Positions 51,015 to 56,909 of a DNA stretch of 64,000 nt are shown here, one piece after another. The notes beneath the pieces were generated by a model that worked only from the letters and a program-made list of their open reading frames with translations, was not told the origin of the DNA and made no database searches. Source of the DNA: Vitreoscilla filiformis (GTDB lineage Bacteria > Pseudomonadota > Gammaproteobacteria > Burkholderiales > Burkholderiaceae_C); contig NZ_CP022423.1 in the NCBI RefSeq assembly GCF_002222655.1, forward strand, positions 3,224,001-3,288,000, read 5' to 3'. Numbering within the stretch: position 1 is the first letter of the stretch; the number at the start of each line of letters is the position of its first letter. The position numbers and the translations under genes were made by a program.

Positions 51015-51569
51015 TCAGGGCTTGTTGCCCGTCGGGAAAGGCCAAGCGGCGTTGGGGCTCAGCGTGGTCTTGGCCGAGGGCGCAGCGGCGGGGGCCGGTG
51101 CTGCGGCAGCCTTCTTGGTGGCTGCGGCTTTCTTGGGCGCTTTGGCCGGGGCGGCGGCCTTGGGAGCTTCGTCCACAACGGCGGCGGGGGCCGGTGCTGC
51201 GGGTTCCGGCGTCACTTCGGGGACGGCTTCGGTCACTTTCTTGGCACTGGCGCGCTTGGCAGTGCTCTTGAGCGTGGGCTTGACCGGCGTCGCCGAAGCT
51301 TCTGCGATCACCGGAGCCGCTGCCTTTTTCTTAGCCGCTGCCTTCTTGGGAGCAGCCTCAGGTTCAACGGGTGCCGGTGCCACAGCGGCGGGTGCTTCAA
51401 CAACAGCCGGTGCCTCCACGGCGGCCGGGGCAGCCGCCACCGTCTCGGTCACAGCGGCCTTGGCCACGCGCTTGGACGACTTCAGCGTCGGCTTGACCGG
51501 CGTGGCCGAAGCCTCAGCCAGCACAGGCGCGTCTGCGGTTGCGGTTTTGGTTGTCTTCTTGGTCGCCAT
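51015..51569 (-). CDS. Alanine/lysine-rich histone H1-like protein
   Basis: A 184-residue low-complexity protein built from Ala, Lys, Pro and Val. Lysine clusters (KKAAAKKKAAA, then KKAAATKKAAAA) resemble the C-terminal tail of histone H1 and bacterial H1-like proteins. The segment EASATPVKPTLKS occurs twice (about residues 19-31 and 88-100), pointing to an internal duplication. The conserved-looking tail is NAAWPFPTGNKP. GGAG precedes the ATG at 51569. It lies 46 bases downstream of nrdB. DNA binding is inferred from composition only. Confidence 0.8.
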   Translation of the reverse strand: MATKKTTKTATADAPVLAEASATPVKPTLKSSKRVAKAAVTETVAAAPAAVEAPAVVEAPAAVAPAPVEPEAAPKKAAAKKKAAAPVIAEASATPVKPTLKSTAKRASAKKVTEAVPEVTPEPAAPAPAAVVDEAPKAAAPAKAPKKAAATKKAAAAPAPAAAPSAKTTLSPNAAWPFPTGNKP

Positions 51570-51614
51570 GAACAAACTCCTTGAGAGAAATTTCGGGGAA
51601 TAACAAGCCAGGGT

Positions 51615-52733
51615 TCAATCCCAGCTCAGGGCACCACCCGACTGGTACTCGATGACGCGAGTTTCGAAGAAGTTGCGCTCCTTCTTCAAATCGATCATTT
51701 CGCTCATCCAGGGGAAGGGGTTTTCCTCGTTCGGGAACAGCGGATCGAGGCCGATCTGAGTCGCACGCCGGTTGGCGATGTACCGCAGATAACCCTTGAA
51801 CATCGCTGCGTTGAGCCCGAGCACGCCACGCGGCATGGTGTCTTCGGCGTAGGCGTATTCCAAATCGACGGCACGCAGGAACAGCGAGGTGATCTCGGCT
51901 TTGAACTCGGCGGTCCAGAGGTGCGGATTTTCCAGCTTGATTTGGTTGATGAGGTCGATGCCGAAGTTGCAGTGCATGGACTCGTCGCGCAGGATGTACT
52001 GGTACTGCTCGGCAGCGCCCGTCATTTTGTTCTGCCGACCCAGCGCCAAAATTTGCGTGAAGCCGACATAGAAGAACAGCCCTTCCATCAAGCAGGCAAA
52101 GACGATGAGCGAGCGCAGCAGCGTCTGATCGGCCTGCGGGGTGCCGGTCTTGAACAGGGGGTTCATGATCGCGTCGATGAACGGGATCAGGAACTCGTCC
52201 TTGTTCCGAATCGAGGGCACCTCGTGGTAGGCGTTGAAAATTTCGCTCTCATCCAGCCCCAGGCTTTCCACGATGTACTGGTAAGCGTGGGTGTGAATGG
52301 CCTCCTCGAACGCCTGGCGCAACAAAAACTGGCGGCACTCGGGCGCCGTGATGTGGCGATACGTGCCCAGCGTGATGTTGTTGGCGGCCAGTGAGTCGGC
52401 GGTGACAAAAAAGCCCAGGTTGCGCTTGATGATGCGGCGCTCATCGTCGCTCAAGCCGTGCGGGTCTTTCCAGGTGGCGATGTCCCGGCTCATGTTGACT
52501 TCCTGCGGCATCCAGTGATTAGCGCAGGTGGCGAGGTACTTTTCCCAGGCCCATTTGTACTTGAACGGCACCAACTGGTTGACGTCGGTTTGGCCGTTGA
52601 TGATGCGCTTGTCGGCCACGTTCACCCGACGCTGGCCGGGTGCCAAGTTGTCAGACTGAAGCGTGGCCGCAGAAGGCGACATGGCCGGGGAAGTCCCGCC
52701 CAGCGGGAAATCGTCATCGTCGAAGTTCAACAT
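51615..52733 (-). CDS. nrdB: Ribonucleoside-diphosphate reductase beta subunit (class Ia)
   Basis: A 372-residue diiron protein that generates the tyrosyl radical needed by NrdA. The radical-site tyrosine is Y151 in [15 protein letters not shown]. Iron ligands are in the EEAIH helix and the [10 protein letters not shown] helix, and the C-terminal LSWD tail may dock to NrdA. The bases before the ATG are pyrimidine-rich (CCTCCCT) with no Shine-Dalgarno sequence, which is unusual for this genome segment. It lies 90 bases after nrdA, separated by a hairpin. Confidence 0.95.
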
Positions 52734-52823: not shown

Positions 52824-55800
52824 TCACTGACAGGCTTCGCAGGTGGGATCGTCCACACCGCAGAATTTGATGTCGGTGGCCGGCACCGAGGCACTGGCCG
52901 CTGCCAGCATGGCTTGGGCCTGACGCGCCACCGCATCAAGCGCCGCTGACATGCCACCGCTCGAACCGGCCCCACCACCTTGGCTGGGCACCGCATTCAG
53001 CGCCCCGGCGGAGATGGTGGACTTCTCAGCGTGCGTCGCCCCCATGGTGCGCAGGTAGTAGGTGGTTTTGAGGCCACGCGTCCACGCCAGCTTGTAGGTG
53101 TCGTCCAGCTTTTTGCCTGAAGCGCCCGCGATGTAGATGTTGAGCGACTGCGCTTGGTCGATCCACTTCTGGCGCCGCGATGCAGCCTCCACCAACCAAC
53201 GGGCATCGACCTCAAAGGCCGTGGCGTACAAGCGCTTGATTTCCTCGGGCACGCGGTCGATGCGACGCAAGCTGCCGTCGTGGTGTTTCAAGTCCATCAC
53301 CATGACGCTGTCCCACAGGCCCAACTTCTTGAGGTCACGCACCAGGTACTCGTTGACCACGGTGAACTCACCCGACAAGTTGGATTTGACCGACAGGTTG
53401 CCAAAACACGGCTCGATGGACGCATCCACGCCGATGATGTTGGAGATGGTCGCCGTGGGCGCGATGGCCACGCAGTTGCTGTTGCGCATCCCGAACTGAG
53501 CGATGCGTCCGCGCAGCGCCGCCCAATCCATCGTGCTGCTGCGATCCACCTCGACATAACCGCCGCGTGCCTGGGCCAGCAGCTCCAGCGAATCCAGCGG
53601 CAGGATGCCTTGGCTCCACAGCGAACCCTCGTAGGTGCTGTAGCGGCCCCGCTCGGCGGCCAGATCGGTGCTGGCCCAATAGGCGTAGTAGCACAGTGCT
53701 TCCATGGAGCGGTCGGCGAACTCCACCGCTGCGGCACTGGCGTAAGGCGTGTGCAGTTGGTACAGCGCGTCTTGGAAGCCCATCACGCCCAGACCCACCG
53801 GACGGTGGCGCATGTTGGCAGTGCGGGCCTTGGCCACGGCGTAGTAGTTGATGTCGATGCCGTTGTCGAGCATGCGCATCGCTGTCGAGACGGTGCGCTT
53901 GAGCTTGTCGTGATCGATTTCCTTGCCGTTGGCGCCGTCCTTCAAATGCTGCGCCAAGTTCACCGAGCCGAGGTTGCAGACGGCGATTTCTTCCTCGTTG
54001 GTGTTCAGGGTGATTTCGGTACAGAGATTGCTTGAATGCACCACGCCGACATGCTGCTGCGGGCTGCGCAGGTTGCAAGCGTCCTTGAAGGTGATCCAGG
54101 GGTGGCCGGTTTCAAACAGCATGGTCAGCATCTTGCGCCACAGGTCTTTGGCCGGCAGACGCTTGAACAGCTTGATCTCGCCACGATCCACCGCCGCTTC
54201 GTAGGCCACATAAGCCTGCTCGAAGGCCGTGCCGATCTTGTCGTGCAGATCCGGGCAGGTGGAAGGTGAGAACAGCGTCCACTGGCCACCTTCCATCACC
54301 CGCTTCATGAACAGGTCGGGCACCCAGTTGGCGGTGTTCATGTCGTGGGTACGACGACGGTCATCCCCCGTGTTTTTGCGCAGCTCCAGGAATTCTTCGA
54401 TGTCCAGGTGCCAGGTTTCCAAGTAGGCACACACCGCACCCTTGCGCTTGCCACCGTTGTGCGCCAGACCGGCCACGGTTTGGTAGGACTCGTCGGTGTC
54501 CACCTTCAAATCGACCACCAGGGCCTTGGGGGTGATCGGGCGCACCGAGCGCACCCGCGAGAACACCACCCCTTCGTGCTCGATCCAATTGCGCTTGCTC
54601 AGCGCTTGGCAGCCCAGGCGCTCGGCCAGCTCGGGCACGGCGGGAATGCGCAGGTCAATGCTGGTGGATTCACCGTCAAAGTGAGCCACTGAGCCATCAC
54701 TGCGCACGCCATCATGCTGATGCTGGCGGGTGCGTTTCTGGCCCGACACGGGCACGCCCAGGCGCAGCATCTGATACCGCACGCCATGCGCCAGCGCCTC
54801 GGATGCCGACGTGAACGTCAGCTCCTTGCCGCGTGACACACAGCCATCGGTTTCCAACAAACCTTGCACCAAGGCCAGCGTCTGGGTGCGCGGCAGGTGC
54901 GAAAAACGCCGCGCAATGCGCTTGGCGTGGTGGCGGTCGTACAGGTCGGCATACTCGAACGGCAGCGTCGGGGCACCGGCGCCGGTGATGCGGCCCGTGG
55001 TGCCATCGCGCAGTGCGCCACGGCCAGATGCCCAGTGGATTTGCAGGTAGCTGTCCCCGCGTGCGGTTTCCCAGAAGTGGATGCCACGCTCGCTCAGGTA
55101 AGCCCGCACGAACGCCAAGTGCTCATCACGCTGCGGGTTGCCGGACACGCCCCATTGCATCGCGTCTTTGGACAGATGGCCGTCACCCAACAAAATGCCG
55201 TAGAGCCGCGCATCGTCCTCGGTGAAACCAGGCACCGACACCACTTCACGCGGGATGGCAAACCCCACGTAATCGCCCGCCACGAGCCGGCCCGACTCCA
55301 CCCAAGCCGGCTGCACCTTGCCCTTGGTCAGCCACGCCTGGGTGCGCTCGCCCGCTTGTTCCATCGGCACGCCTTGCAGCGCCCAGAACGGGTGCGCGTC
55401 GGTCACTTCGATGGGTTCGATGCTGTGTTTGATGTCCAGCGCCAGCATCGGGTCGGTCTGGTTGTAGACCATCCGTTCGGTGATCTCGCGATACTGGCCG
55501 CTGTGGCCCAGCACCAAGTCACCGGGGCGCAAGTCACGGATCGGGCGGGCACCCTCGGCGGTTTGCACCAGGGTATCGGGCGCAAAACATTGGTTGACCG
55601 CCACCGCCGTGTCGTTCACCACCTTGAGGAACGGCACCACGCCTTGGCTCTTGCCGTTCGTGCCCTTGATGTAACTGCCCAGGGCGCGCACGTTCGACCA
55701 ATCGTTGCCCAGACCGCCGGCAAACTTGGACAGCAGCGCGTTTTCCTTCAGCGCCTCGTAAATGCCTTCCAGATCGTCCGACACCGTGGTCAGGTAGCAG

Positions 55801-56909
55801 CTCGACAACTGCGAACGCCGCGTCCCCGCGTTGAACAGCGTGGGCGTGCTCGACATGAAATCGAAGCGAGAGAGCACGTTGTAGAACTCGATGGCCCGGG
55901 CCTCGCGCTCCTCTTCGTTGAGAGCCAAACCCATCGCCACCCGCATGAAGAACGCCTGCGGCATTTCGATGCGGCGCTCGCCAATGTGCAGGAAGTAGCG
56001 ATCAAACAGGGTTTGCAGGCCAAGGTAATCGAACTGCAAGTCGCGCTCGGGTTGGAGCGCAGCGCCCAGGCGAGTCAGGTCAAAACTCAGCAGTTTTTCA
56101 TCCAGCAGCTCGGCATTCACGCCTTCTTGGATGAACTGCGGGAAGTAGCTGGGGTAGCGCGTGGCCATTTCTTCCTGCGTCACCTCTTGGCCCAGGATGT
56201 TCTGGCGAATGGTGTGCAGCAACAGGCGGGCAGTGGCGCGGGTGTAGGCCGGATCGGTTTCGATCAGCGTCCGCGCAGCCAGAATCGCAGCCTTGTAGAC
56301 CTCCTCGATGGGCACACCGTCGTAAAGGTTGCGCAGGGTTTCCGCCAGGATGGGCTCGGGGCGCACGTCTTCACCCAAGCCCGCGCAAGCCGACGACATC
56401 AGGACAGCCAACTTGGCCTCATCCAGCGGCTGACGCTGGCCGTTCACCACCACATGCAGCACGCGCTTGGCAGCGGCAGCCGCCGCCGCTGCGGCGGCAG
56501 CCTCAGCGGCCAGGCGGGCGCGCTCTTGGGCGTGGCGTTCGCGGTAGAGCACGTAGGCCCGGGCGACATCGTGGTAGCCGCCGCGCATCAGGCTCAACTC
56601 GACGTGGTCTTGCACGTCTTCAATGTGGAAGGTGCCGCCGGTCGGGCGCGAGCGCATCAGGGCGCGCACCACGATTTGCGTCAACTCCTCGACGGCTTCG
56701 CGCACCGTGACCGACGCTGCGCCTTGCGCGCCACGCACCGCCAAAAACGCCTTCATCAGCGCGGTGGTGATCTTGTGAGGCTCGAAACTGGCCACTGCGC
56801 CATTGCGGCGAATGATGTGGTAGTTCGCGTAAAGATTGGCGGTGACAGCCGGCTTGGTGGCCGGACGCTCGGCTTCAGCCACGTCGGAGCTGTAGGCGGA
56901 CGATTGCAT
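52824..56909 (-). CDS. nrdA: Ribonucleoside-diphosphate reductase alpha subunit (class Ia) with in-frame intein
   Basis: The precursor has 1361 residues; without the intein the enzyme is 983, a normal length for NrdA with two ATP-cones. Cone 1 is near 28-120 and cone 2 near 148-240, joined by a linker with 11 alanines. The catalytic barrel has FNAGTRRSQLSSCYLTTV (redox cysteine), HSSNLCTEITLN (thiyl radical cysteine) and AVCNLGSVNL. The C-terminal shuttle cysteines are in DPTCEACQ. An intein (residues 441-818) interrupts the loop AVAVNQ/GGKRKGAVCAY. AAGGGG precedes the ATG. Two NrdR boxes lie about 280 bases upstream. If the intein cannot splice, no active NrdA would form from this gene. Confidence 0.93.
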   Translation of the reverse strand: MQSSAYSSDVAEAERPATKPAVTANLYANYHIIRRNGAVASFEPHKITTALMKAFLAVRGAQGAASVTVREAVEELTQIVVRALMRSRPTGGTFHIEDVQDHVELSLMRGGYHDVARAYVLYRERHAQERARLAAEAAAAAAAAAAAKRVLHVVVNGQRQPLDEAKLAVLMSSACAGLGEDVRPEPILAETLRNLYDGVPIEEVYKAAILAARTLIETDPAYTRATARLLLHTIRQNILGQEVTQEEMATRYPSYFPQFIQEGVNAELLDEKLLSFDLTRLGAALQPERDLQFDYLGLQTLFDRYFLHIGERRIEMPQAFFMRVAMGLALNEEEREARAIEFYNVLSRFDFMSSTPTLFNAGTRRSQLSSCYLTTVSDDLEGIYEALKENALLSKFAGGLGNDWSNVRALGSYIKGTNGKSQGVVPFLKVVNDTAVAVNQCFAPDTLVQTAEGARPIRDLRPGDLVLGHSGQYREITERMVYNQTDPMLALDIKHSIEPIEVTDAHPFWALQGVPMEQAGERTQAWLTKGKVQPAWVESGRLVAGDYVGFAIPREVVSVPGFTEDDARLYGILLGDGHLSKDAMQWGVSGNPQRDEHLAFVRAYLSERGIHFWETARGDSYLQIHWASGRGALRDGTTGRITGAGAPTLPFEYADLYDRHHAKRIARRFSHLPRTQTLALVQGLLETDGCVSRGKELTFTSASEALAHGVRYQMLRLGVPVSGQKRTRQHQHDGVRSDGSVAHFDGESTSIDLRIPAVPELAERLGCQALSKRNWIEHEGVVFSRVRSVRPITPKALVVDLKVDTDESYQTVAGLAHNGGKRKGAVCAYLETWHLDIEEFLELRKNTGDDRRRTHDMNTANWVPDLFMKRVMEGGQWTLFSPSTCPDLHDKIGTAFEQAYVAYEAAVDRGEIKLFKRLPAKDLWRKMLTMLFETGHPWITFKDACNLRSPQQHVGVVHSSNLCTEITLNTNEEEIAVCNLGSVNLAQHLKDGANGKEIDHDKLKRTVSTAMRMLDNGIDINYYAVAKARTANMRHRPVGLGVMGFQDALYQLHTPYASAAAVEFADRSMEALCYYAYWASTDLAAERGRYSTYEGSLWSQGILPLDSLELLAQARGGYVEVDRSSTMDWAALRGRIAQFGMRNSNCVAIAPTATISNIIGVDASIEPCFGNLSVKSNLSGEFTVVNEYLVRDLKKLGLWDSVMVMDLKHHDGSLRRIDRVPEEIKRLYATAFEVDARWLVEAASRRQKWIDQAQSLNIYIAGASGKKLDDTYKLAWTRGLKTTYYLRTMGATHAEKSTISAGALNAVPSQGGGAGSSGGMSAALDAVARQAQAMLAAASASVPATDIKFCGVDDPTCEACQ
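54456..55589 (-). mobile_element. NrdA intein with LAGLIDADG homing endonuclease
   Basis: A 378-residue intein starts at Cys1 (CFAPDTLVQTAEG, block A). It has the block B TxxH as T63-H66 (EVTDAHPFW), the endonuclease motifs LYGILLGDGHL (Asp136) and LVQGLLETDG (Asp248), block F (ALVVDLKVDTDESYQTVAGL), and ends with His377-Asn378. Both endonuclease acidic residues are kept, suggesting an active or recently active element. The residue after Asn378 is Gly, where standard inteins need Cys, Ser or Thr. Excision in frame would restore VNQGGKRKG exactly as in intein-free NrdA. Confidence 0.93.

Follow-up and report, generated by a model that had tools for sequence, protein, structure and literature searches.

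A LAGLIDADG intein lodged beside a glycine in class I NrdA probably splices without a +1 nucleophile

Results and discussion

An intein followed by glycine in the alpha subunit of ribonucleotide reductase

In the 64,000-nucleotide stretch of the Vitreoscilla filiformis genome analysed here (the window, to which all coordinates refer unless a contig is named), the gene nrdA (52824..56909, minus strand), encoding the alpha subunit of a class I ribonucleotide reductase (RNR), is interrupted by an intein whose +1 residue is glycine, while the textbook splicing mechanism needs Cys, Ser or Thr at this position. We propose, with a probability of roughly 0.65, that the element is a mobile intein settled at a single codon boundary in loop 2 of NrdA, beside a glycine belonging to the host protein, and that it splices productively with no +1 nucleophile, a reading built on sequence comparison and on analogy with bacterial intein-like (BIL) domains. 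In the proposed route, the N-extein would be passed to Cys1 as a thioester with the assistance of the TxxH motif; Asn378 would then cyclise, breaking the unusually labile Asn-Gly bond; and the freed, unhindered alpha-amine of Gly819, kept near by the HINT fold, would attack the thioester to form a Gln-Gly peptide bond. We infer these steps and their order from BIL precedent, whereas anatomy and conservation of the intein were observed directly; productive processing of the precursor we strongly infer.

Ligation without a nucleophile is known chiefly from BIL domains, where it is weak. The present intein family, which sits invariably next to glycine in an enzyme required for DNA synthesis, seems to ligate well enough for life, and makes it directly testable whether a HINT fold can ligate efficiently by means of a main-chain amine. 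Such a family could provide a ligation tool leaving no Cys, Ser or Thr scar, and suggests that host constraint, in this case the conserved glycine of loop 2, can push an intein toward other chemistry.

Anatomy of the intein and its junctions

The precursor is a single open frame of 1361 amino acids (aa), scoring 1733 bits against NCBIfam PRK07207 (cut-off 965) and matching the Pfam domains Ribonuc_red_lgC, Ribonuc_red_lgN and ATP-cone. All of its parts lie on the minus strand: the N-extein (residues 1-440, ending in AVNQ; 55590..56909), the 378-aa intein (residues 441-818; 54456..55589), composed of a HINT splicing domain with an inserted LAGLIDADG endonuclease, and the C-extein (residues 819-1361 plus stop; 52824..54455), which begins with GGKRKGA and contains the SSNLCTE motif. 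The junctions read AVNQ/CFAPDT...AGLAHN/GGKRKGA; removal of the intein leaves 983 NrdA residues, and the tryptic peptide expected across the ligated junction is VVNDTAVAVNQGGK (K before, R after). Within the intein we located Cys1, the proposed thioester residue (55587..55589, codon checked), the block B TxxH motif with Thr63 and His66 (55392..55403), two LAGLIDADG motifs with catalytic Asp136 (55179..55214) and Asp248 (54843..54878), Asp360 of block F (54510..54512), and the C-terminal His377-Asn378 (54456..54461), immediately followed by Gly819 (54453..54455). An initial annotation, made from the letters of the window, had described an intein with Cys1, TxxH, both LAGLIDADG acids, a terminal His-Asn and a +1 glycine, and our analysis recovered this arrangement at exactly the same coordinates.

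Conservation among homologues and the search for another nucleophile

Homologues were collected in two protein searches, one with the intein region described here and one with a distant intein from Thiothrix fructosivorans (46% identity); the best 120 of 954 matches from each gave 219 distinct proteins together. Among these, glycine followed the terminal Asn in 218 of 218 proteins with a readable C junction, the only unreadable one (P0116) being cut short and probably corresponding to the frameshifted gene of locus L044, so that the +1 glycine, for which the initial annotation had suggested an alignment of inteins at the same site, is indeed general among the homologues listed. The penultimate intein residue was His in 203, Ser in 14 and Lys in 1 of the 218. 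Cys1 was present in 212/212 homologues with a search pattern blind to residue 1, and in 217/219 with a pattern that included Cys, the other two proteins beginning inside the intein. Cys1 and the Asn/Gly junction likewise occurred in those genome loci where the junctions could be read. Residues shared by all 207 aligned inteins include Cys1, Thr63, His66, Asp136, Asp248, Asp360 and Asn378; in loci L074 and L075 the two endonuclease acids are lost.

Two variations within the homologue set were recorded. The 14 inteins with Ser before the final Asn form a Thiothrix-type subgroup (L053, P0124-P0135 and relatives) with neither a penultimate His nor a +1 nucleophile. In eleven listed NrdA precursors (P0012, P0016 and 9 further), another intein, 363-366 aa long and followed by Thr at +1, lies directly after SSNLC, and these precursors must therefore splice twice, with different +1 residues.

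The alignment of 207 inteins bears on the possibility that, prior to ligation, the N-extein is passed as an ester to some other intein residue, in the way that class 3 inteins use their block F Cys. Several Thr, Ser and Tyr residues are near-invariant and could be candidates (e.g. Thr371 in 205/207 and Tyr369 in 207/207). However, Cys1 is the only invariant cysteine (position 250 is Cys in 49/207 and position 327 in 189/207), and the block F position used by class 3 inteins presumably resembles Asp360 here. C-extein residues 1-8 contain no Cys, Ser or Thr in 212/218 precursors, and the Cys at +9 is missing in 2/218 and present in intein-free NrdA. We consider such a hidden nucleophile unlikely. 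Two specific candidates were rejected, namely the +9 Cys, for its two absences and a position that appears far for a simple shift, and a Lys at +3 acting in the manner of BIL2, since the product would be branched and would not be NrdA.

Empty sites and an insertion point in specificity loop 2

NrdA is free of the intein in 15/15 other genomes of the genus, where matches stop at residue 440 and restart at 818; the 11 of these loci whose sequence we inspected read through as an uninterrupted ...Q-GGKRKGA (one with TQ instead of NQ). The intein is thus present in 1/16 genus genomes and the exact empty site in the others, a patchy presence at a fixed site. Because only cuts at Q/C and N/G restore the intein-free sequence, both junctions are unambiguous. 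The initial annotation had named a sequencing or frame error and a boundary shifted to a Cys, Ser or Thr as ways in which the anomaly might dissolve; the former is ruled out by the Asn/Gly junction in all 218 readable homologues together with the 11 intein-free loci, and the latter by the fact that no other pair of cuts leaves the intein-free sequence.

No phage carrier turned up in one viral-contig scan with the NrdA intein, and no carrier other than the V. filiformis genome itself (G000) was found in a sample of 398 genomes of the phylum. One congener whose NrdA is intein-free has, elsewhere in its genome, a stretch weakly resembling the initial part of the intein (41%; G307:C1:87573-87878), perhaps another HINT domain.

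The break aligns right after Gln288 of human RRM1 (query residue 440 corresponds to position 308 of 5d1y, whose numbering runs 20 ahead of that in 3hnc), and the match restarts at 289 in both 3hnc and the yeast structure 1zyz. Yeast Q288 is described as part of loop 2, through which the allosteric signal reaches the substrate (PMC3267527). This alignment puts the insertion in specificity loop 2 of class I NrdA. Without splicing, the precursor would thus be expected to lack activity, and the glycine at +1 would be set by the host protein and not by the intein.

Selection and dependence argue for productive processing

Purifying selection was estimated from 28 pairwise comparisons among 8 of 24 extracted genes, using simple NG86 ratios of non-synonymous to synonymous substitution (dN/dS) with dS often near or above 1; the values for the intein (0.08-0.24) were similar to those for the C-extein (0.08-0.24).

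We then considered RNR content in every one of the 31 different genomes that matched the intein strongly. Intein-bearing NrdA was the only RNR catalytic subunit found in 16/31 (completeness 95-100%; G038, G384, G407, G460, G613, G1066, G1071, G1083, G1084, G1086, G1092, G1093, G1095, G1098, G1103 and G1104), meaning that there was no other PF02867 protein, no NRDD match and no RTPR match above cut-off. Sub-cut-off RTPR matches in these genomes fell in NrdA itself, except for a weak one in G460 (E 0.05, containing a stop), and G407 has an additional 89-position RNR fragment in a 137-aa frame. The other carriers had a second RNR (G000, G058, G400, G445, G666, G1080), a class III enzyme (G1094, G1100, G1101, G1102), a partial or ambiguous RNR picture (G1065, G1088) or a broken 3' part of nrdA (G366), or were less than 70% complete and outside the RTPR test (G1058, G1085).

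Two sole-RNR genomes of the same genus, G1092 and G1104, are particularly informative. In their 315-aa inteins both LAGLIDADG acids are gone, as is a portion of the endonuclease, and homing can hardly maintain these inteins any longer, yet they keep Cys1, TxxH, the block F Asp, His-Asn and the +1 glycine. The two copies differ in the first HINT half by 1.5 non-synonymous and 9.5 synonymous changes (dN/dS 0.04), in the second half by 0 and 5 (0.00), and in the endonuclease remnant by 9.5 and 18.5 (0.15).

Given this selection, the sole-RNR carriers and the homing-dead but splice-conserved copies, productive processing of the precursor is very likely, and splicing of some kind, by whatever chemistry, appears highly probable from the sequences. 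The suggestion in the initial annotation that C-terminal cleavage could dominate is correspondingly disfavoured by the sole-RNR carriers and the homing-dead copies. Its premise that NrdA is essential is weakened: V. filiformis also encodes the class II RNR NrdJ and may therefore not need NrdA, and the dependence argument comes from relatives.

Several observations weigh against productive splicing. In addition to the presence of NrdJ, A-type BIL domains are stated to be unable to ligate (PMC7765530), published BIL domains yield mostly cleavage products, and conservation of Cys1 and Asn taken alone would equally fit double cleavage. A single family, that of G384, accounts for 13 of the 16 genomes with no other RNR, and most of the 16 are drafts (G1093 is a single contig), so these genomes are not independent. 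In the homing-dead copies the remnant is itself constrained, the change counts are small, and both losses may go back to a single event. Finally, two carriers look broken, through decay or assembly error: L044, with junctions in different frames, and L035 (the locus of G366), with an interrupted nrdA 3' part.

Double cleavage, in which the intein would cut at both ends and the NrdA pieces would then act as a non-covalent pair, draws on the frequent cleavage by BIL domains, on the flexibility of loop 2 and on phage Aeh1 NrdA, described as functioning as two chains (PMC3267527). The break, however, would lie inside loop 2, directly after the Gln that reaches the substrate, in the sole RNR found in 16/31 carriers, and on this argument from position we regard such reassembly, too, as improbable. 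That the intein is decaying, with NrdA no longer made and NrdJ supplying the cell, finds some footing in the presence of NrdJ and in the two broken-looking carriers, but is very improbable given purifying selection on the intein, intact nrdA and downstream nrdB-like frames, the carriers with no other RNR, and a NrdJ that is itself interrupted by an intein.

NrdJ and neighbouring genes

The intein in NrdJ is 252 aa long and lies outside the window (G000:C1:312249-313004, locus L002). Its junctions, NP/CVTADT...GLVTGQ/CAEQ, show a Gly-Gln end in place of the usual His-Asn, with +1 Cys. No class III enzyme (NRDD) was found in this genome, and both RNRs of V. filiformis seem to depend on atypical inteins. 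Directly downstream of nrdA lies an intact frame of 372 aa (51615..52733, minus strand), which we take, from sequence likeness rather than a family search, to encode an nrdB-like small subunit. Adjoining it is a Lys/Ala-rich frame of 186 aa (51015-51575, minus strand) that looks histone H1-like by eye.

Comparison with known systems

An intein in Azotobacter nrdA has already been published (A. chroococcum Achr_15980 and A. vinelandii Avin_33290; PMC4465626) and shares the class I NrdA host and a LAGLIDADG-3 endonuclease; the passages of that account concerning the intein carry no remark on a +1 glycine or on mechanism. The homologue in Azotobacter salinestris (P0084, 67% identity) has identical AVNQ/C...HN/GGKRKG junctions. 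InBase reportedly lists the A. vinelandii RIR1 element as a BIL, in which case the oddity at +1 had been noted before.

Comparison with type A BIL domains, exemplified by that of C. thermocellum (2lwy), revealed Cys1, a His-Asn end and no +1 nucleophile in common, the His-Asn end occurring in the intein described here and in the 203 homologues with penultimate His. The HINT fold superposed on 2lwy at 1.5 A over 129 residues with 27% identity; the sequence match (E 0.17) is not significant by itself. BIL domains have been published as ligating without a +1 nucleophile (cited in PMC4031507), and an unusual splicing route of this kind, as the initial annotation anticipated, would best explain a genuine intein whose +1 residue is not a nucleophile. 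In contrast, BIL domains are short (130-155 aa; PMC9185962), reside in variable regions of non-conserved proteins (PMC7765530) and mainly cleave, while the NrdA intein has 378 aa with an endonuclease and always occupies the same loop 2 position, in the core of an enzyme.

Class 1 endonuclease-bearing inteins such as TliVMA (7qsu) share Cys or Ser at residue 1, TxxH and the terminal Asn, but have Cys, Ser or Thr at +1 where this family has Gly. Class 3 inteins lack Cys or Ser at residue 1 and carry a block F Cys and a WCT motif, unlike the present inteins with their invariant Cys1. With two acid-bearing LAGLIDADG motifs inside a HINT domain and a patchy presence at a fixed site, the element does conform to a homing LAGLIDADG intein. 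In the open-access literature searched, the matches listed included no family of inteins that carry an endonuclease, sit in the core of an enzyme and have Gly at +1 in every member, the exact phrase '+1 glycine' being outside that search.

Tetrahymena BUBL BIL2 (6y75) likewise makes its new bond with an amine (PMC8616854), but there a lysine side chain gives an isopeptide bond, whereas the NrdA intein would use a main-chain amine and give a normal one. We hold it an even chance that these inteins form a separate mechanistic class, an amine-ligating family in which nucleophile-free ligation is efficient and obligatory, evolved because the loop 2 site offers only Gly, with several proteobacteria relying on this family for the whole of their de novo synthesis of deoxynucleoside triphosphates.
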